A stretch of 28,869 nucleotides of DNA from a virus. The translations under genes and the position numbers were made by a program. Where the stretch lies: positions 1-28,869 of IMG/VR virus record IMGVR_UViG_3300009418_000078; one strand, given 5' to 3'. The notes beneath the pieces are model-generated. The model saw only the letters and a list, made by a program, of their open reading frames with translations, did no database searches and had not been told where the DNA came from. This document shows, piece by piece, positions 3,993 through 25,927 of this stretch; positions within the stretch are counted from its first letter, which is position 1, and each line of letters opens with the position of its first letter.

Positions 3993-5852
3993 ATGTCTAC
4001 ACAATCTAGATTAGCTAAATTAAATTTTAGACCGGGAATTAACCGTGAGTCTACAGAGTATGCTGAAGAAGGTTCATGGTATGACGGTAATAAAATTAGG
4101 TTTAGACAGGGAAGACCAGAAAATTTAAGGGGTTATTCCAAGAGATCAACTTCTTCTTTTGATGGAACAGGAAGAGATTTGCTTGCTTGGTCAGATAACG
4201 ATACATTTAAATTTGCTTCTTTTGGAACAGAGAAAAAGTTATACGAATACAATGATAATTCCATCTTGGATATTACACCTATTAAAGAGGTTTCTGTAGG
4301 AACTAATGTTTCTGCTGTGGTTACAGTTGATGGAACAAATAATGGCTTTTATACTGTTGATGGTTCCACTAGAGTATCTGTTTCTGTTTCAAGTCATGGT
4401 GCAGAGACAGGAGATTTTATTACATTTACCTCTGCCACAACAATTGGGGGAACAATAGATTTAACAGGTGGGACATTTGCTGTATCTGTTTTAGGAGATA
4501 ACCAGTTTTCTTTTGATGCTTCTGTTACAGCCAATGCTTCACAAAGCAAGGTAGGAACAGCAACATTAAAATATCTTTTACCTACAGGAACAGATGTAGC
4601 TATTCAGGGTTTAGGATATGGAGCAGGAGTTTATAATGCAGGAGTTTCTACAACTGGAGTCAGGGCATGGAGTGAGGCTGCAAGCTCATCTAATATTGTG
4701 ACAAGGATTACTCAATGGACATTAGATAATTGGGGAGAAGACATTCTTGCCTGTAGAAGAGGAGGCAGGATATATTTCTGGGATTCAACCAGAAGCTCAA
4801 CTCCTCCAAGAGCAGGATTTGTAAGTGCTTCTCCTTCAATTAATAACTACATTGTTGTGTCTCCTAATGACAGACATTTAATTTCTTTAGGAAGTAATGA
4901 GTATGCAACAGGAACATATAATCCCTTATTGGTAAGGTGGGCTGATCAAAATAATTATAATAATTTTACTCCCTCTATTAGTTCCACTTCAGGAGAAAAT
5001 ATTCTGGCTGATGGAACAGAAATTATTGGTGCAACAAAATCTCGTAATTCAATTATGATTTGGACAGACAATTCTGTATGGGGTATGCAATTTGTTGGAC
5101 CGCCTTTTACCTTCTCGTTTACACAAATGGGAAGCAACTGTGGATTGATTGCTCCTCATGCAGCAGTAGATTATGATGGTATATCTTACTGGATGGGGGA
5201 TGATAACTTCTATCTCTTTGATGGTAGAGTAAAGAATCTTCCTTGTACAGTAAGAAGATATATCTTCGATGATTTTAATATTACAAATAAAGATAAGGTT
5301 TATGCTGGAATTAATTCTGAATTTAAGGAAGTGATCTGGTTATATCCTTCTTCAGATTCTACAGAATGTGATAGGTACGTTATATTTAATACAGAAGAAC
5401 AGGCTTGGTATTATGGTACAGGTATCAATACAACATATTTCGATAAGATTATTTTTGATAATACAATAACTACAGGAGTTTCTGTTTCTTCATTCTTTTA
5501 TAATAACGAACCAGATGGAATATTTACAGCTAATGGTGTGGCACAGACATCTTTTATTGAGTCTGCTGTTTTTGAGATTAATCCCGATGGTACGAACCTG
5601 CTATTTGCAGACAGATTAATACCAGACTTTACCTTATCTGGAGGAAATTTAGGTTTTAGTATAACTGTACAGAATTTTCCTGTAAATGATCAAATTAAAA
5701 AAGGACCATTTACTATATCTCCTACAACTAAGAAAGTTGATTTTAGGGCAAGAGGAAGGCAAGCTATTGTTCGGGTTTCTTCAGGAGAAGCAGGGACTAG
5801 CTGGAGATATGGCTCACTGAGACTTTCATTACAACCTGACGGGCTACGATAA
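3993..5852 (+). CDS. Phage structural protein, tail hub / DNA-stabilisation-like
   Basis: A 619-residue beta-rich protein opening with LAKLNFRPGINRESTEYAEE, then WYDGNKIRFRQGRPENLRG. The N-terminal theme (F-x-P-G-I, then Y-x-x-x-G-x-W-x-x-x-x-x-I-R-F-x-x-G-x-P) is one I associate with conserved podovirus head-to-tail or tail-tube proteins, compared here by recall with P22 gp10-like stabilisation proteins. Several aromatic, blade-like segments follow (for example YVIFNTEEQAWYYGTG near residue 461). There is no signal peptide or membrane segment. It starts 10 bp after the previous gene and ends 3 bp before the next start, so it is probably expressed as part of the late operon. A structural role is fairly secure; the exact place in the virion is not. 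Confidence 0.6.
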   Translation: MSTQSRLAKLNFRPGINRESTEYAEEGSWYDGNKIRFRQGRPENLRGYSKRSTSSFDGTGRDLLAWSDNDTFKFASFGTEKKLYEYNDNSILDITPIKEVSVGTNVSAVVTVDGTNNGFYTVDGSTRVSVSVSSHGAETGDFITFTSATTIGGTIDLTGGTFAVSVLGDNQFSFDASVTANASQSKVGTATLKYLLPTGTDVAIQGLGYGAGVYNAGVSTTGVRAWSEAASSSNIVTRITQWTLDNWGEDILACRRGGRIYFWDSTRSSTPPRAGFVSASPSINNYIVVSPNDRHLISLGSNEYATGTYNPLLVRWADQNNYNNFTPSISSTSGENILADGTEIIGATKSRNSIMIWTDNSVWGMQFVGPPFTFSFTQMGSNCGLIAPHAAVDYDGISYWMGDDNFYLFDGRVKNLPCTVRRYIFDDFNITNKDKVYAGINSEFKEVIWLYPSSDSTECDRYVIFNTEEQAWYYGTGINTTYFDKIIFDNTITTGVSVSSFFYNNEPDGIFTANGVAQTSFIESAVFEINPDGTNLLFADRLIPDFTLSGGNLGFSITVQNFPVNDQIKKGPFTISPTTKKVDFRARGRQAIVRVSSGEAGTSWRYGSLRLSLQPDGLR

Positions 5853-9676: not shown

Positions 9677-12412
9677 ATGGGAATATTATCAGTATTGGGT
9701 AGCCCAAGACCAGCAGGAACTCCTGTAGGATCAGCAACCTCAATAACAACTACACAACTTCCTCCAGAGTTTAGACCTTTTATTACAGATATTTTTCAGA
9801 AGGCTAAAGCTCAACAAGAAGGATTGAAGTTTATACCATTTACTGGTCCAAGGATTAGAGGTTTTGGTCCTTTACAGGAAGAAGCTTTTACAGGACTAAC
9901 TGATTTAGCCAGAAGAGGAATAAGTAGTGTTCCTGATGCTACAAGTGCAACATTTCTGACAGCAGCTACAGATGCTGCTGCAAGAGCAGGAAGACCTATA
10001 ACGACAGAAGATATAGCAAGATTGTCTAGTCCTTTTCAGCAGGAAGTAATTGATGTTGCAAAAAGAGAAGCTCAAAGAGATTTTGATTTACAGGTTGCAC
10101 CAAAAGTTGCGGCAGAAGCTGCAGCAGCAGGGTCTTTCGGAGGGTCAAGGGCAGGACTTCTTGAGTCTGAATCATTAAGAAATCTACAAGAACAGTTATC
10201 TGATATTCAAACTAAAGGAAGTGCTCAAGCATTTGCACAGGCACAACAAGCTTTTCAAGATGAAAGAGCAGCAGCAGCAGGACTATCTGGATTTTTAGAA
10301 AGACAGATGACTGGCGTTCCTAATCAGGCTTTAAAAGAATTGGCTGCGTTACAGACTGTGGGTGAATCAAAACAATTGCTTGATCAGAAGGCACTGGATT
10401 TAGCTTATCAAGATTTTCTTGAGGAAAGAGAATTCCCAACAAGATCATTGCAGGAGTATCAAGCTTCTATTAGAGGATTCCCTTATACACCAGCAGCTTA
10501 TCAATATACAACCCAGACTGCACCTACACCTTCTCTTGGACAGACATTGCTTACTGCTGCTGCTCAAGGGGCTGGATTATATGGTACTCTTGGTGGGTTT
10601 GGATTTGGAGGTACGCAGAAAGCAGCTTCTGGTGGACAGATAAGAGGAGGACTTTCTGGTATGGTTGAGTCTCACCAGAATAATAAATCTTTGCCCAAAC
10701 AGCAGTATAGAGTGCCTCGCAAATTTACCAGAGGATGGAAATACGCCGCTCCTCGCCGTAATCTATTTCACTTAACCGATACTCCAGAGACAGAACGCTT
10801 TGAAGAAGTAGAAGAATTTACTTCAAGGGATTTACTTCCTTGGCAGCAGAGTGCAAGAATAGCAAAACTGGCACAACTAGGAAATCTTTCTGCAGATAAG
10901 ATGGAGCAATTAAATGTAGAAGGAGTATCTTCTATAGATGAAAGTGATATTGGACCCGGTAGAGGGGTTAGCTCTGCATTAGCACAAGTCTCTCCTGTTG
11001 CCTTAAAAACAGCAGAAGTTGAAGAAGCTAAAAAGAGACAGGCCAGATGGAACCCATTAGATATTTTATTAGGAAAGCCTGTGGATCAAAAACTTTCAGA
11101 TGTCATGGGGATTGGAACACCAAGACAGGCATATGATGATGTCTTAGCAGGAGAAAAGGAAGGAATTGCTACTTACAAAAAATCACTAGAGGCGGCAGAG
11201 ACTAAAGATGCTGCAGAACTAGCTGCCTCTGAACTAGCAGAAAGGGCAACACTAAAAGGGTTAGCGGAAAAAAGTAAGTTTACAAAAGAACAGTTGGAAA
11301 ACTTAAAACAAAGACAGGCTAGAAGAAAAAGTAGATATGGAACAGAAAAAACGGAATTAGAAGATTTTAGAACAGATATACAAAGTCAGGATAGAGAGGC
11401 TGTGGAAGAGTTAAGGGAAGGAGCAGAAGATGCTCAAACAATGTATGATGAGCAAATAGGTTCTTTACAAAAACAAAGAGGTTTTGAAATTCTTGCAGCT
11501 TTTGGAGCTACTGGACAGGTAAGTGCTGAAGAGGCTAGTAGAGGAAGTATAATTGAAACTGCAGGAAGAATTATGGCTGATGCATCAAGAGCTATGGCCC
11601 CTCAGTTAAGAGAGTTAAGTGAAAAAGAAAGAAAAGCTGAGATGGCAAAAATCGAAAGAGCAGGATTAGATAAAAAAGAAATTAGAAATTTGAATAGAGC
11701 AGCTACATTAAGAGATAAAGATGCTTTTAAAGAGTTAAGTCAATTTGAGACTAATTATGAAAATGATCTGATGAAATATCGTCAGGCAAAAGAAGCACTA
11801 AGAACTACTCAAATAATGGAACCAGCAGAAAGAGCAAAAGCACAAATAGCTGTTAAAACAGTGCAAGCTGAAATTGCACAGAGGGACGTAGTAAGACAAC
11901 AAGCACTAGCTAAACTGCAAAGTGCAGCAGAAAAAGCTGCTACTGAGGCAGAAGGAAACCGGGCAGAGATATGGATTAAGATTTATAAACAACTGGCAGA
12001 TAACGCTGCTAATACTATGACTAATGTAGAAGCAGCAGATTATAATGTCCTTTTAAAACAGGTGTCAGGAGCAACACCGGGACGTTTTACAATTGTAGAT
12101 GGTCAGCTTAGAAATCTGGATGGAAGTGCATTTGATGCAGATACAGAAAGCAAACATGCCGATGCATATACTAGTGCAATGAGAATATTTCAAGTTACTG
12201 GGGATATGCCTCTGGCACTAGAGACATATATAGAAAAAGCTAGAGCATCAGGAATAATGCAGCCTTCTGCAGTATCTGGTGGTCCACCTCCAAATGCTAT
12301 TAAGTCATTTCGGGATGCTGTAAAAAACGATCCCAATAATAGAGATCGGCATATAAAAGATTTTAGGATAAAATATAATTTAACTGAAGAAGAAGCGGAA
12401 GGTCAATTATAG
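9677..12412 (+). CDS. Large internal virion protein with long coiled coil
   Basis: A 911-residue protein. The N-terminal third is Ala/Gln-rich and helical, including FGGSRAGLLESESLRNLQEQ near residues 154-173. A Gly-rich segment around 300-330 holds GGQIRGGLSGM, related to the GGL motifs of the two preceding proteins. From about residue 440 to 760 it is dominated by charged helices (for example DAAELAASELAERATLKG and KARLQ-type heptads), predicted to form long coiled coils. There is no signal peptide. AGGA lies 7 bp before the ATG. The stop TAG overlaps the GTG start of the next gene as TAGTG, coupling the two. Size, helix content and position fit a podovirus internal core or ejection protein. 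I see no transglycosylase motif. Confidence 0.65.
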   Translation: MGILSVLGSPRPAGTPVGSATSITTTQLPPEFRPFITDIFQKAKAQQEGLKFIPFTGPRIRGFGPLQEEAFTGLTDLARRGISSVPDATSATFLTAATDAAARAGRPITTEDIARLSSPFQQEVIDVAKREAQRDFDLQVAPKVAAEAAAAGSFGGSRAGLLESESLRNLQEQLSDIQTKGSAQAFAQAQQAFQDERAAAAGLSGFLERQMTGVPNQALKELAALQTVGESKQLLDQKALDLAYQDFLEEREFPTRSLQEYQASIRGFPYTPAAYQYTTQTAPTPSLGQTLLTAAAQGAGLYGTLGGFGFGGTQKAASGGQIRGGLSGMVESHQNNKSLPKQQYRVPRKFTRGWKYAAPRRNLFHLTDTPETERFEEVEEFTSRDLLPWQQSARIAKLAQLGNLSADKMEQLNVEGVSSIDESDIGPGRGVSSALAQVSPVALKTAEVEEAKKRQARWNPLDILLGKPVDQKLSDVMGIGTPRQAYDDVLAGEKEGIATYKKSLEAAETKDAAELAASELAERATLKGLAEKSKFTKEQLENLKQRQARRKSRYGTEKTELEDFRTDIQSQDREAVEELREGAEDAQTMYDEQIGSLQKQRGFEILAAFGATGQVSAEEASRGSIIETAGRIMADASRAMAPQLRELSEKERKAEMAKIERAGLDKKEIRNLNRAATLRDKDAFKELSQFETNYENDLMKYRQAKEALRTTQIMEPAERAKAQIAVKTVQAEIAQRDVVRQQALAKLQSAAEKAATEAEGNRAEIWIKIYKQLADNAANTMTNVEAADYNVLLKQVSGATPGRFTIVDGQLRNLDGSAFDADTESKHADAYTSAMRIFQVTGDMPLALETYIEKARASGIMQPSAVSGGPPPNAIKSFRDAVKNDPNNRDRHIKDFRIKYNLTEEEAEGQL

Positions 12413-19759: not shown

Positions 19760-22054
19760 CTATATCTCTAACACTTCTCTGTAATGTTTTAAGTTTTTAG
19801 TCGTTGAGTTTTCCCATATAGCTGCGACAAGAGTATCTCTTCCGTGAAAATTTAAATTCATATCTACATCTTCTCTATCAAATAATTTCTCACAGTCTTG
19901 AGCCATAGCCAAGAGTTCTCCTGTAGTCCAGAAGGGACGGTTCTCTCCGTTTACTTTAATACCTACCTGAATATATTTTGGTTTTTCATTTTCAATTATC
20001 TTCTTCTCTTCTGCACTTGGTTCAGGCATGGAGCAGTCATATCCAAAAAGATGGAAAGTTCTGAAGCCTAGTGTATGCATAATACCTATACTCCGCATAG
20101 CCGCACAGGTTCCACCAACGATCATTGTAGCTCCTGCCTCTATGCCTAGCTCCTCTTTTACAGTGATAGCCTTCTGTTGTTCCTCTGCCTTTGTGTCTCT
20201 CAGTGCCTCTGAAAAAGCATGCCATCCAATAATATTATCTGTTTTAGATTTAATAAGATTGGTTACTGAGGGATCAGTCATGGATGCGTTAAGGAATAAA
20301 GTATCTTTATCCACAGTCTTAAATAAATCTTTTCTTACTACACCATGAGTACTTATCCCATCAACTGGACGGGGATCAAGAATTACACAAGCCCAAGGTT
20401 TTATTCCTTCTTCTAAGAGTTTAGGATAGGAATGTTTTACACAGACAACCTTACACCTGTCTTCACCCTCATGCCTGATAAAACCCTTTAATGATTCCCA
20501 GTCAACCCTTCCTGCAGACACAAGGATTGCAACCTCATTATTTGGTTTAGCTCTTTGAATCCACTTATTAATTATTTTTGTATTGGCCTTTACATTAGTT
20601 TCAATGTATTCTTTTGGAACACAATCCTTTGGGTGGACTACAATAGGAACTGACTGAATATCTATGGGGATATCCGGCAAATCCTTATCTGTTAAAACAA
20701 TTGCTAAATGAGTCCTTCCTCCCCCTTCTACCTGATCCTTAGAAGGGAGAATGGTAGAGCGTTTTTGTTTCTGGACAATCTTATTTACACCATAAAATTC
20801 TTTTGAAGGACCGCTCCCATCTTCTTCCTTTAGGATGTAATCGTCAAGAACAATAACAGGAGATTTATTAAGCATTTTAAAATCATGATTAACAGTATCT
20901 TCTGAATGTCCTCCATCTATAAAAGAAAAGTCTGCTTTAGATTTCTTTAAAGTTTTCTTTGTATCTCCTTTATGTAGTTTAAATTTAAATATTTTTCCCT
21001 GCTCTTTAATCTTATCTGCAAATTCCTGCAGTCTTCCAGTAACTGCTTCAATAGAATTATGAGCTTTTGAATTTAATTCTAGTTTATCTGATTCTGTTGT
21101 TGCTTCTTCAAAAAGATCGTAGCCTGTATACGTTACCTTATCTGTATGTTGGAAGGCAGCTAAAGCCATTTGAATAGCCCTACCACCATTCCATGTTCCT
21201 GTCTCAATAATAGATTTAGGTTTATAAAAGAGAACTAACTGCATTAATTGTTTGTATCTTTCTGGTCCATTAATATCAGGAGAAACACCTCCTCCGGGTT
21301 TCTTTCTTGATCCTTTATTATGGATCATGTATTCACCTAAAGGAAATTTCTCAAAGGCTTGTACACCAGAATGAAGACTCTTAATTTCATCCAGATGTCC
21401 TGTCCAGTCATGGGCTTTTAATCCATGAGCTATATAAATTTTTAATAATCTTTCAAAGACAAACCCATCATGCCATTCCCTGTAATTTAAAACCTCACCA
21501 GAAATATAGGCTCCTCTTAAGTCTCCTAGTAAATCTACTGGTGCTTGGTGATTAAGATTAAATCCTAAAAAAGATGTCTCGCTATATTCATAGTGCTTCC
21601 TTCCCAGATAAACTAGGGAAGCATTTTCTGGGAGACAGGTACTAAGGGTTACATGATTTAAACGCTTTGTCGTTATGGTATCTGCATCCAGCCAGATAAG
21701 CCATCCCGGTTCTTTACTGTAAGAACATAAATCAAAAGCAAATTCTGTGAGTGCAAAAACTTTATGACAGAATTTTAAACAGTCTAACTTGTAAGTGTAG
21801 GGAGCTTTCCCACCCAGAGTACCATCATACTTTGCATACTCTTTCTTAAAGTCTACCATGTCCTGTACTTTATTTAAATTACGATAAGAAATTTGTGGAT
21901 TAATAAACGGATCAGTCATTTCAAAGTCATGATAAAATGCTGTCAAATAAATATTTGGCCCCCAATACTTGGCGGCAGTACGCACCATCTCTTTTCCATA
22001 TGTTTTCCAACCATCTTCAGAAAAAGATGTAACTATATTAATTCTTTTTTCCAT
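19760..22054 (-). CDS. Three-domain enzyme: GT-A-like glycosyltransferase + SAM methyltransferase + DUF115-like
   Basis: A 764-residue protein with three recognisable parts. Residues 1 to about 250 look like a GT-A-fold glycosyltransferase: WLDADT at 121-126 gives the D-x-D metal motif, EWHDGF near 193-198 and HNKGSRK near 245. Residues about 262-455 are a class I SAM-dependent methyltransferase of the Methyltransf_24 type: IIETGTWNGG (282-291) is motif I, FSFIDGGHSEDT at 376-387, and VIVLDDY at 400-406. Residues about 500-764 resemble DUF115/MptE-like or Maf-type domains: ILDPRP at 558-563, GGTCAAMRS at 647-655 and LFGYDCS at 669-675. It overlaps the upstream glycosyltransferase gene by 22 bp. 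A role in making or altering a surface glycan, of virion or host, is inferred. The substrates are not known. Confidence 0.75.
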   Translation of the reverse strand: MEKRINIVTSFSEDGWKTYGKEMVRTAAKYWGPNIYLTAFYHDFEMTDPFINPQISYRNLNKVQDMVDFKKEYAKYDGTLGGKAPYTYKLDCLKFCHKVFALTEFAFDLCSYSKEPGWLIWLDADTITTKRLNHVTLSTCLPENASLVYLGRKHYEYSETSFLGFNLNHQAPVDLLGDLRGAYISGEVLNYREWHDGFVFERLLKIYIAHGLKAHDWTGHLDEIKSLHSGVQAFEKFPLGEYMIHNKGSRKKPGGGVSPDINGPERYKQLMQLVLFYKPKSIIETGTWNGGRAIQMALAAFQHTDKVTYTGYDLFEEATTESDKLELNSKAHNSIEAVTGRLQEFADKIKEQGKIFKFKLHKGDTKKTLKKSKADFSFIDGGHSEDTVNHDFKMLNKSPVIVLDDYILKEEDGSGPSKEFYGVNKIVQKQKRSTILPSKDQVEGGGRTHLAIVLTDKDLPDIPIDIQSVPIVVHPKDCVPKEYIETNVKANTKIINKWIQRAKPNNEVAILVSAGRVDWESLKGFIRHEGEDRCKVVCVKHSYPKLLEEGIKPWACVILDPRPVDGISTHGVVRKDLFKTVDKDTLFLNASMTDPSVTNLIKSKTDNIIGWHAFSEALRDTKAEEQQKAITVKEELGIEAGATMIVGGTCAAMRSIGIMHTLGFRTFHLFGYDCSMPEPSAEEKKIIENEKPKYIQVGIKVNGENRPFWTTGELLAMAQDCEKLFDREDVDMNLNFHGRDTLVAAIWENSTTKNLKHYREVLEI

Positions 22055-23299: not shown

Positions 23300-23328
23300 T
23301 AAAAATAGGAAGGGCTTTATACCCCTCC
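23300..23328 (-). terminator. Rho-independent terminator after the small heat-shock gene
   Basis: On the minus strand GGAGGGG (23328-23322) pairs with CCCTTCC (23314-23308) across a 7-nt loop, 7 base pairs including one G-U, followed at once by TATTTTTA. It lies 7 bp after the heat-shock stop codon and just before the GNAT-like ATG. It would make the heat-shock mRNA largely monocistronic. Confidence 0.7.
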
Positions 23329-23334
23329 ACTCCT

Positions 23335-23775
23335 CTAGTTAATTGTGAATATTTTAGGTTTCTTCTCCTCTGGTAGTTTATGTTCTAAATATATATGTAA
23401 CAGACCGTCCTTAAAAGAAACACTCTTTACAGTCATGTAAGGAGAAAGTTTAAAATCTTTTGTAAAAGAACGACACGCTATACCATTATATAAGTATTGG
23501 GTTTCTTTTGTATCTTTTAATTTTTCTCCTTCAGAAGAAATTCTAAGAGTACCCTCTTCAATTAATTTAACAGAAATATTATCTTTATAATATCCAGCTA
23601 ATGCAAGAGTTAATATATACATATTAAATTCCCCTGCTTCATTATTTCCACCAGTTGCTACAATCCTATGAGGGGGAAACACTTTATTTTTTTCTGGAAG
23701 AGACTGCATATGCTGCAGATCGTCCATAAACTTTGTTAATCCTATACTGTGATTCAGTGTGTGAGCAGTAAACAT
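23335..23775 (-). CDS. Small heat-shock protein (Hsp20 / alpha-crystallin family)
   Basis: A 146-residue IbpA-type chaperone. The short N-terminus (NHSIGLTKFMDDL) matches the usual F-D-x-L start. The alpha-crystallin domain spans about 34-134: FPPHRIVATGGN, ILTLALAGYYKDNISVKL, LYNGIACRSFTKDFKL (94-110), and the signature FKDGLLHIYL (121-130). The tail ends in KIFTIN, an I-x-x-I variant of the I-x-I motif used for oligomer assembly. These proteins hold unfolding proteins without ATP. The open frame runs on to 23892, but the ATG at 23775 has a strong AAAGGAG 5 bp upstream and gives the normal length. It has its own promoter, a long foldable leader that hides this ribosome-binding site, and a terminator. 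A tRNA precedes it. Confidence 0.93.
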   Translation of the reverse strand: MFTAHTLNHSIGLTKFMDDLQHMQSLPEKNKVFPPHRIVATGGNNEAGEFNMYILTLALAGYYKDNISVKLIEEGTLRISSEGEKLKDTKETQYLYNGIACRSFTKDFKLSPYMTVKSVSFKDGLLHIYLEHKLPEEKKPKIFTIN

Positions 23776-23900
23776 TTTATCTCCTTTCGCAAGATGTTTT
23801 GGAAACCCAACAAGGCATTTCCAAGGATAGTCTGTAGCCCGATTTCTTCTCGCTACCCTAGTTAATAGGAGTAGTCGGGAGGCACAGACCAAGCCTTGAT
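23776..23900 (-). promoter_or_regulatory. Structured 5' leader, candidate ROSE-like RNA thermometer
   Basis: This is the inferred 125-nt leader of the small heat-shock mRNA. From its 5' end: a nested stem made of AAGGC/GCCTT (23897-23893 with 23816-23812), GTCTGT/ACAGAC (23889-23884 in complement with 23835-23830), CCCGA/TCGGG (23879-23875 with 23842-23838) and a hairpin of 8 bp with one bulge (23853-23874). Then comes TTGGAAA/TTTCCAA (23799-23824). Last is ATCTTGC-GAAA-GGAGAT (23779-23795), where GGAG of the ribosome-binding site pairs with CUU(G)C, the G bulged and the loop a GNRA tetraloop. A wider AAACAT/ATGTTT pairing could also cover the start codon. ROSE elements upstream of bacterial sHSP genes share this multi-hairpin layout and the UYGC strand opposite the ribosome-binding site. 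Confidence 0.7.
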
Positions 23901-23906
23901 TTATTT

Positions 23907-23935
23907 ATTATCTCATATTTTCTCTCTACTGTCAA
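23907..23935 (-). promoter_or_regulatory. Sigma70-type promoter of the small heat-shock gene
   Basis: Minus strand: TTGACA (23935-23930), a 17-bp spacer, GATAAT (23912-23907). This is 6/6 and 5/6 to consensus at ideal spacing. Transcription would start near 23900, four bases before the first stem of the foldable leader. It lies 11 bp downstream of the tRNA 3' end. Confidence 0.8.
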
Positions 23936-23945
23936 CAAAAAATAT

Positions 23946-24022
23946 TGGTGCTCTTGGAAGGACTTGAACCCACAACCTACAGATTAGAAGTCTGTCGCTC
24001 TATCCAGTTGAGCTACAAGAGC
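23946..24022 (-). tRNA. tRNA-Arg (anticodon TCT), CCA encoded
   Basis: A full cloverleaf of 77 nt can be drawn: acceptor GCTCTTG/CAAGAGC, D stem GCTC/GAGC, anticodon stem ACAGA/TCTGT with loop CTTCTAA (anticodon TCT), T loop TTCAAGT, discriminator A and an encoded CCA. The T stem (GTGGG/CCTTC) has one T-T mismatch and one G-T pair. It reads AGA, by far the most visible Arg codon in this AT-rich window. Its first base G (24022) is also the last base of the nrdJ TAG stop codon, and a T-run follows its 3' end. Confidence 0.93.
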
Positions 24023-25698
24023 TAAACTCCACATACCCCACCTGAACCAGTGATCTCACAAATATCATGAGCCTGTATGTTATCTTCAAATTCTTCACCA
24101 AGTTTATCTACTGCCTCTTTATAAGACACAACGGTTAGAGGCTGTCCGCCTCTGCTTCCATCAGGAAAACAGGTAAATCCTCTAAGTCTATGAGCATACC
24201 TAGCTAGTGTCTGAGCAAAAGGCTCTACTAAATCTTCATTATTTTCTTTAGTATCCCACGGTGGGAGATTGATTGTACTTGAAATACTCATGTCCACATA
24301 TTCCTGTATGTTAGCTTGGAAAGATAATCTTCTTTCATAATCTGTAGCCAAGTCCATTGCTGATTCTATTTTGTTGGGGTCTGTTCCATACAAGTCAATC
24401 ATTTCTTGAGCCGCACTATCTACAACATACTGGTAATGCCACCTTCTATTTTTCAGGTATCTTCTTTTATAAGAGACAGCAAAGATAGGTTCAACCCCAG
24501 TAGATGTACCAGCAATAATACCTATTGTTCCTGTAGGTGCTACTGCACGTTTAGCTACAGGTCTGGAAATTCCTAATTCATCTGCAAAGGAATCAGAAAT
24601 CCTATCAGACTCTGCCTCATAAACTTTCAACCAACGGTGCATCTCTTCTGTAGTTTCATACTTGCTATTTCTTTGTATCAACCACTCATGCAGACCCATC
24701 AATCCTAGACCAAGCCTTCTATTCTTTTCTCTTACTTCATAAACTTTATCATATGGTAGTTGTGCTCTGAGTGTACCGCAAAGAAGAAACTTTGTAGCTA
24801 ATTCTACCACGTCTCTAAGCTGATTAAGATCATCAATCCTAGCAAAATTAAGACTTCCCAAATTGCACACATCTGAATCATCTTCTGACGTAACTTCTGT
24901 ACAAGCATTTCGTAGCGTTTCTTTTTCCTTGTCGAAGAAATTGAAACTAAAGCCCGGTTCTGCTGTTGACAAAGCCTGACGTATATTTGTCCTAAAGACA
25001 TCTCCTACCTCTCCTGTTTTCCAAAAGTTTAATAACCATTCTGTGTCATAATTAACACTTACATTTGTCATGTCTAAGGGGGCAGGAAAATTAAAGTCAT
25101 CTTGTTTAACATCAAACAAAGTCTGTCCTGTATTCCCTATCGGCATATCCTTCCAGTTTTTAGAAGAAAGAAATTTATATATATCCTCATGCTTCCAATT
25201 CAGGCTTGCATAAATTGCAGACCTTCTACTACCTCCCTGCATAACTCTTCTACCAATTTCATTTATCATTTGTATTTTAGGAATAGGTCCAGAAGCAATA
25301 CCACCTGTTCCTCCAAGTCCTTTACCTTCTGCTCTGTACACTGAGTAGTCAGAACCTATTCCACCACCTGTCATCAGACAGGATTCAGCCTTCCAAGAAA
25401 GATTAGCCCAATCTTCTCTGGTGTCTTCCTCACATTTTAAGAGATAACAATTATTAAAAAACTTCTTCTCTCTTCCTGCGTAATATAAATACCTACCCCC
25501 CGGAATAAATCTTAATTCTGCTATATGATTTGTAAGCTCTGTCTTTTCTGAGGTAGTCATCTTGTCCTGACACACATCCTCAACCAGAGTTGCTGCCAGT
25601 TCATACATAGTCTCAGCACCTGCATGATAGTACTTTGTATTAAATATATCTTCTGAAAATTTGGATCGGAACTGTGGATTTTTATTGGATTTAAACAT
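24022..25698 (-). CDS. nrdJ: Class II (adenosylcobalamin-dependent) ribonucleotide reductase
   Basis: A 558-residue reductase that makes deoxyribonucleotides through a B12-generated thiyl radical, needing no oxygen. From the ATG at 25698: FIPGGRYLYYAG near 65-76, first redox cysteine in NNCYL (C84), the catalytic N264-x-C266-x-E268 in LRNACTEV, the partner cysteine C278 in DVCNLGS, RRLGLGLMGLHEWL near 327-340, APTGTIGIIAGTSTG near 387-401, and C-terminal cysteines C547 and C556 for re-reduction. No separate small subunit is near, as expected for class II. It is shorter than many bacterial NrdJ. The TTG at 25701 is a worse start. The start overlaps the DUF3310 gene by 8 bp; the stop overlaps the tRNA by one base. 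It supports phage DNA synthesis alongside DUF3310. Confidence 0.93.
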   Translation of the reverse strand: MFKSNKNPQFRSKFSEDIFNTKYYHAGAETMYELAATLVEDVCQDKMTTSEKTELTNHIAELRFIPGGRYLYYAGREKKFFNNCYLLKCEEDTREDWANLSWKAESCLMTGGGIGSDYSVYRAEGKGLGGTGGIASGPIPKIQMINEIGRRVMQGGSRRSAIYASLNWKHEDIYKFLSSKNWKDMPIGNTGQTLFDVKQDDFNFPAPLDMTNVSVNYDTEWLLNFWKTGEVGDVFRTNIRQALSTAEPGFSFNFFDKEKETLRNACTEVTSEDDSDVCNLGSLNFARIDDLNQLRDVVELATKFLLCGTLRAQLPYDKVYEVREKNRRLGLGLMGLHEWLIQRNSKYETTEEMHRWLKVYEAESDRISDSFADELGISRPVAKRAVAPTGTIGIIAGTSTGVEPIFAVSYKRRYLKNRRWHYQYVVDSAAQEMIDLYGTDPNKIESAMDLATDYERRLSFQANIQEYVDMSISSTINLPPWDTKENNEDLVEPFAQTLARYAHRLRGFTCFPDGSRGGQPLTVVSYKEAVDKLGEEFEDNIQAHDICEITGSGGVCGV

Positions 25699-25927
25699 CA
25701 ACTCCCCCCTCTGGCTTCTCGTTGTAAGCTAATTGTAGAATTAATTCTGCGTAGTGAATAACTTTTTTGATGTCTGCGGCTCCATCACCTTTCATTCTGT
25801 GACGGGTTATATATTTTATCACATTACCCTCAAAATAGTCAAGGTTGTTTGCATAAATATATTCTACTGGTTGTATCTTACAACTTCTATAATGTTCTCC
25901 TCCAACCTGCTTATCTAATGGTTTCAT
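25691..25927 (-). CDS. DUF3310 protein
   Basis: A 78-residue protein of the DUF3310 family: QVGGEHYRSCKIQPVEYIYAN is the defining start (G-G-x-H-Y, then Q-P-x-E-Y-I), followed by LDYFEGNVIKYITRH and DIKKVIHYAELIL. The family is very common in phages, often near nucleotide-metabolism or replication genes, and some members are annotated as nucleotide kinases, although the fold is too small for a classic kinase and no P-loop is present here. The gene overlaps the start of nrdJ, so both are probably made together. A GAGGAAGG precedes the ATG by 7 bp. Confidence 0.88.
   Translation of the reverse strand: MKPLDKQVGGEHYRSCKIQPVEYIYANNLDYFEGNVIKYITRHRMKGDGAADIKKVIHYAELILQLAYNEKPEGGVDV

Follow-up and report, generated by a model that had tools for sequence, protein, structure and literature searches.

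The leader of a small heat-shock protein (sHSP) gene, hsp20, in the viral DNA analysed here (the whole 28,869-nucleotide stretch of IMG/VR record IMGVR_UViG_3300009418_000078, which we refer to as the window) contains an RNA element that belongs to a widespread family of hsp20 leader elements found across unrelated phages. We consider this element, at positions 23777-23828, likely to be a short two-hairpin ROSE-like RNA thermometer of phage, its opening by heat and its control of translation being inferred. An initial annotation, made from the sequence alone, had proposed a ROSE-like thermometer in this leader; the observation is real, and its scope is larger than that annotation saw. The structure of the element, its covariation, its recurrence before phage hsp20 genes and its match to alphaproteobacterial sHSP leaders are all shown below. 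Features of the window are on the minus strand unless stated otherwise.

A ROSE-like element is expected in the 5'UTR of a small heat-shock gene, and is expected to comprise two to four hairpins, the last holding the Shine-Dalgarno sequence. The first expectation is met, as the open reading frame directly downstream of the leader (23335-23775, start codon at 23775-23773) encodes a 146-aa Hsp20/alpha-crystallin small heat-shock protein (Pfam HSP20, E = 3.6e-9; PHROG 432 Hsp20, E = 1.1e-27), in agreement with the gene assignment of the initial annotation. A tRNA-Arg(TCT) gene (23946-24022) lies upstream, and a promoter scan placed a putative sigma-70-like hsp20 promoter, TTGACA-17-GATAAT, with 11 of 12 consensus matches, at a -35 box of TTGACA (23930-23935) and a -10 box of GATAAT with TG upstream (23907-23912). 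This is a single site, a count not above shuffle expectation, and the main support for the promoter is its position between the tRNA gene and the leader. The location of the -10 box puts the transcript start near 23900. Directly after hsp20 there is a terminator-like hairpin (23308-23328), an 8-pair stem followed by TATTTTTA (two overlapping calls vs. 0.4 expected), and hsp20 may form a single-gene unit with its own promoter and terminator-like hairpin. Elsewhere in the window, a short (559 aa) ribonucleotide reductase large-subunit-like gene (24022-25701, minus strand) sits directly upstream of the tRNA-Arg gene, and a 764-aa protein with MptE-like and Methyltransf_24 domains, unusual for a small phage, is encoded at 19760-22054 (minus strand). 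For a structural protein at 3993-5852 (plus strand), the closest sequences are the stabilization protein annotated in Phage DSL-LC04 and proteins from the Pelagibacter phages HTVC023P/HTVC027P and from the Roseobacter phages CRP-901/902, which suggests a related short-tailed phage of aquatic proteobacteria.

The window leader is made up of three parts: a 5' stem-loop domain, hairpin I and hairpin II. The whole 125-nt leader folds to -39.8 kcal/mol, against -30.2 kcal/mol for shuffled sequences (z = -2.53, 4/200 shuffles). The initial annotation had described a leader of about 125 nt folded along nearly its whole length, which held, and had named a fold no better than shuffled sequence as grounds for refutation; the leader beats its shuffles, and the reading is not refuted on those grounds. 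The 5' domain, identified by folding and comparison (23829-23898, main helix 23829-23890; -23.9 kcal/mol, z = -2.27, 7/200 shuffles), is about 70 nt long, lies between the promoter and hairpin I, and was seen only in near-identical contigs. It is absent from the relative L134, which encodes an Hsp20 45% identical to that of the window and also has a tRNA gene just upstream; as the L134 promoter abuts hairpin I, we regard the 5' domain as lineage-specific. The 5' CAAGGC of this domain is complementary to the GCCUUG of hairpin I, which would permit an alternative or pseudoknotted fold.

Hairpin I (23799-23824), UUGGAAAUGCC-UUGUU-GGGUUUCCAA, carries a bulged G at 23816 within AUGCC/GGGU, and is supported by its sequence, by family covariation and by its fold (z = -2.21). 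This bulged-G signature is the most diagnostic part of the leader and was overlooked in the initial annotation. Hairpin II (23779-23795), AUCUUGC-GAAA-GGAGAU, is the Shine-Dalgarno hairpin, for which a thermosensing role is proposed; it is defined by its sequence and by the covariance model R2 described below, and has six pairs, a bulged G at 23790 and a GAAA loop. The Shine-Dalgarno core GGAG (23781-23784), 5 nt before the start codon, is hidden in it behind CUUGC. The anti-Shine-Dalgarno motif of the window is UUGC with the bulged G, the fifth base of U(U/C)GCU being the G of the GAAA loop (UUGCG). This hairpin had been described in the initial annotation with GGAG opposite CUU(G)C, the bulged G and the GAAA loop, all of which held with the coordinates right, whilst a wider AAACAT/ATGTTT pairing also described there held only in part, being present in the window but not a feature of the family. 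The expected arrangement of two to four hairpins ending in one with the Shine-Dalgarno sequence is thus met by hairpins I and II, which are supported by covariation. Taken alone, hairpin II has low stability (-2.3 kcal/mol, z = -1.84), and the energy of the 3' two-hairpin part by itself is not significant (z = -1.20, 26/200 shuffles). As the hairpin pair is unexceptional by energy and hairpin II is weak, folding energy alone would not settle the case, which rests on comparative evidence: covariation, and the match to a model built from other phages.

Near-identical contigs were uninformative on conservation, and the leader could not be found by DNA similarity, as blastn of the leader region against phages matched only the tRNA. 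A distant relative, L006 (Hsp20 35% identical), has an AUGCC-N5-GGGU stem with a bulged G, followed by CUUGC..AGGAG, directly before hsp20. The family was collected with a degenerate pattern that fixes AUGCC, GGGU, YGC and AGGAG; it replaced a first pattern which did not require YGC..AGGAG and gave mostly chance matches inside genes. As the pattern leaves the flanking stem and the downstream gene unconstrained, both are fair tests. It returned 66 sites with a properly spaced open reading frame, 45 of which encode Hsp20, and one further site, in L204, stands before a 74-aa open reading frame that overlaps an hsp20 start. A near-identical sequence of about 60 bp (GATGCCCTGCAGGGTCTCG..CTCGCTATCCCGCAGGAG), present at more than 20 places in Salisediminibacterium halotolerans (NZ_RKQQ01000001-7; L274, L281, L293 and others), looks like a dispersed repeat with a chance match to the pattern. 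In three phages (L204, at 10544-11555; L252; L267) hsp20 lies near a clpS-like gene, which is ClpS-like by eye in L204 and annotated as ClpS in Sinorhizobium phage Phosso and Pseudomonas phage PA5oct.

Across 36 phages, an ungapped comparison of hairpin I found standard pairs in 93.5% of pair cells. Both partners differed from the most frequent pair in 82 cells, compared with 25 in shuffles, and none of 500 shuffles reached that count; slid controls were 29-47% paired, and a control helix at arbitrary columns showed no excess pairing. For the whole element, a model-based alignment of 41 leaders was used, as MAFFT misaligned hairpin II where loop lengths differ, and gave 96.3% paired cells and 98 double changes. 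That alignment is fitted to the structure, and the ungapped hairpin I count is therefore the unbiased one. In hairpin II, U-G/C-G alternation is common and the Shine-Dalgarno side can hardly vary; HTVC103P, a Pelagibacter phage not selected by the pattern, exhibits a compensatory change from C-G to A-U in the Shine-Dalgarno helix. The anti-Shine-Dalgarno sequence CU(U/C)GCU is nearly invariant in the family, far more constant than the pattern demanded. A search for covarying stems in homologous phage leaders had been proposed as a check in the initial annotation, and the compensatory changes found do not refute its reading. A -10-like box, either TATAAT or the TATAAATA of T4-type late promoters, starts 12-18 nt before AUGCC in 28 of 45 relatives; the mRNA of those relatives would accordingly begin with hairpin I, and their entire leader would measure about 60 nt.

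Covariance model R2, for which 41 phage leaders were used and the window left out, matches the window at 23777-23828 with 34.9 bits (E = 2.1e-6), which establishes the window leader as a member of the phage hsp20 leader family. Among 926 kb of further viral sequence that had been filtered beforehand for a hairpin-I-like string, the sole score above 22 bits came from a relative of the window. The element is present directly before hsp20 in 17 of 18 phage genome records, at 19-52 bits, and is carried by 12 of 13 phage genome leaders outside the R2 training set; the 18 genomes were hand-picked from a ranked list, and represent a sample rather than a prevalence. The sampled carriers infect cyanobacteria, Pelagibacter, Methylophilales, Sinorhizobium and Pseudomonas, and include S-PM2, P-SSM4, S-CRM01, S-T4, S-SSM7, S-SSM4, S-CAM1, S-CAM7 and S-CAM8, together with HTVC103P, Mosig, Melnitz, Phosso and PA5oct. 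The weakest, S-T4 and S-CAM1 (19-21 bits), were accepted on position and pairing, and the sole exception among the 18 was Vibrio phage PWH3a-P1, whose hsp20 lacks the element. In several T4-like cyanophages (L250, L254, L261, L262, L266, L269) hsp20 is directly preceded by regA, the gene of a translational repressor; RegA as a leader-binding repressor was set aside, as the element is also present in phages without a regA neighbour. These data bear on the simplest alternative, that the resemblance to ROSE is an accident of folding in an ordinary leader. In its favour are the single-sequence energy of the element, which is not significant, and the absence of an Rfam match. It is all but excluded, being refuted by the comparative data: the covariation, the R2 match (E = 2.1e-6), the recurrence before hsp20 in unrelated phages, and the yield of only a window relative from the other viral DNA.

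The element is not filed under the Rfam ROSE families because their cutoffs were unmet. Screening with the ROSE and ROSE_2 models, another check proposed in the initial annotation, left the window leader unmatched: the Rfam ROSE models gave no match even at E ≤ 10, and the gathering cutoffs of ROSE and ROSE_2 were unmet. Nor did RF02523 ROSE_3 (gathering cutoff 43 bits) match the window at E ≤ 10. When the window and its relatives were scanned with Rfam, no ROSE reached gathering level, and a scan of six phage loci at E ≤ 5 gave nothing useful. The phage relative L006 did give a full-length match to ROSE_3, at 21 bits. Applied to bacterial genomes, the pattern identified leaders of sHSP genes whose record titles are nearly all alphaproteobacterial (Acetobacter, Caenispirillum, Ferrovibrio and marine groups); ROSE_3 scored two of the eight tested at 31-35 bits, below its 43-bit cutoff, and the phage model scored several at 24-63 bits. 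Some of the top-scoring bacterial records may be phage contigs inside bacterial or archaeal assemblies. The phage element and the ROSE_3 type have a core of sequence and structure in common, through either descent or convergence: the ROSE_3 consensus has a GAUGCC..GGGUC hairpin with a bulged G, then ACUCGCU..AGGAG, although the phage elements score far below its cutoff (21 vs. 43 bits for L006) and the window is unmatched. ROSE and ROSE_2, which we take to be RF00435 and RF01832, are also sHSP leaders that end in a Shine-Dalgarno hairpin with a bulged G, but those have three to four hairpins, and they do not match the window.

By those literature criteria that can be applied to sequence, the window element resembles a short ROSE-like thermometer, departing from it only in having UUGCG for UUGCU. 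The closest characterised likeness is to the Pseudomonas ibpA leaders, experimentally proven thermometers of 61-62 nt with two hairpins, in which the second hairpin melts with heat whilst the first stays closed (Krajewski et al. 2013, PMC3669281). Both systems have an element of about 60 nt before an sHSP gene, with a stable first hairpin and a second in which the Shine-Dalgarno sequence pairs with U(U/C)GC and a G is bulged out. They differ in that ours is on a phage genome and has a hairpin I core of AUGCC/GGGU with a bulged G, in that the window adds a 5' stem-loop and replaces the last U of the motif with its GAAA loop, and in that its temperature response is inferred. In the mechanism we propose, hairpin I would be a stable scaffold on the 5' side, and hairpin II would pair the Shine-Dalgarno GGAG with CUUGC around the bulged G and so keep ribosomes off; on warming, hairpin II would loosen first, the Shine-Dalgarno sequence would be freed, and the phage chaperone would be made. 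Given the sigma-70-type promoter, such a response would not need the host heat-shock sigma factor, and the sigma-32-independent control suggested in the initial annotation is consistent with the 11/12 match of that promoter.

Heat-driven opening and control of translation are inferred, without a measurement of temperature response. In predicted folding of the isolated window 5'UTR, the unpaired fraction of GGAG rises gently between 5 °C (0.09) and 42 °C (0.29); its value of 0.24 at 37 °C compares with 0.51 for nine other window genes. With 36 nt of coding sequence added, another pairing appears, the exposure curve is flat and no melting is predicted. Nearest-neighbour rules do not cover the non-canonical pairs of ROSE hairpins. 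Predicted exposure is thus weak support, as the coding sequence abolishes the trend and the rules miss these pairs. Of the earlier claims, the ROSE-like thermometer reading is supported as to kind, temperature dependence remains an inference, and the proposed check by folding across temperatures showed a rise that is lost once coding sequence is added. The shallow predicted melting also favours a static reading, in which the role of hairpin I is to protect the mRNA 5' end, and hairpin II only sets a low, temperature-independent rate of translation. Stem-loops at the 5' end of an mRNA are known to stabilise it, and in 28 of the 45 relatives the transcript would begin with hairpin I. We consider static hairpins unlikely, as they account neither for the near-invariant CU(U/C)GCU with its bulged G nor for the almost exclusive association with sHSP genes.

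The main rival to a thermometer is a feedback operator, in which free phage Hsp20 would block translation by binding to the leader of its own gene; misfolded protein would titrate Hsp20 away, and the leader would sense protein damage in infection, not temperature. This is possible, and there are no binding data. E. coli IbpA represses its own translation via the 5'UTR, for which it needs Arg93 in the G-I-A-x-R-x-F motif (PMC10474464; we take Arg93 to be the arginine within this motif), and the arginine aligned to it (R102 in the window protein) is invariant in 28 of 28 aligned sHSPs. Most carriers are marine phages, which meet little sudden heat, and the conserved hairpin I, with its invariant bulged-G loop region, exceeds the needs of a simple melting hairpin. 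Against this, the invariant arginine may be kept for other reasons, and in Pseudomonas hairpin II alone is enough for thermoregulation (PMC3669281). The thermometer and feedback-operator readings may both hold. A bolder reading, which we offer only as a possibility, is that many hsp20-bearing tailed phages share one ROSE-like switch that acts as a sensor of protein damage: Hsp20 would repress its own leader until aggregates, arising from heat or late in infection, draw it away. Among these phages would be the T4-like cyanophages, where hsp20 is a core gene.

Returning to the thermometer reading that we prefer, RNA thermometers already known from phages are those of lambda cIII, SPbeta blyA and a Caudoviricetes sigma-70 gene (PMC4166951, PMC11182007); unlike the element described here, these are not of the ROSE type and not on chaperone genes, and the sigma-70 one is a fourU. 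The manA RNA motif (Weinberg et al. 2010, PMC2864571) similarly comprises structured cyanophage leaders, sometimes before ibpA-like chaperone genes, but is a different RNA, and the window leader has no manA match. No ROSE element in a phage was found in the open-access full text or catalogues searched, subscription papers being outside this scope, and the passages searched in papers on cyanophage Hsp20 (PMC3827213, PMC5028025, PMC3037559) mention no leader RNA thermometer. The statement in the initial annotation that no phage-borne thermometer of this kind was known therefore held for the ROSE type in the literature searched, other phage thermometers being known already. Among bacterial RNA thermometers, ROSE-like elements are described as the most common class. 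If our reading is true, a bacterial heat-shock switch would be a standard part of hsp20 in phages of cyanobacteria, SAR11, methylotrophs, rhizobia and pseudomonads, and cultured carriers such as S-PM2, P-SSM4, HTVC103P and PA5oct would be systems in which to ask what phage Hsp20 does, and when. Phages would then adjust the timing or the amount of their chaperone to temperature or protein damage, with no need for the host heat-shock sigma factor.
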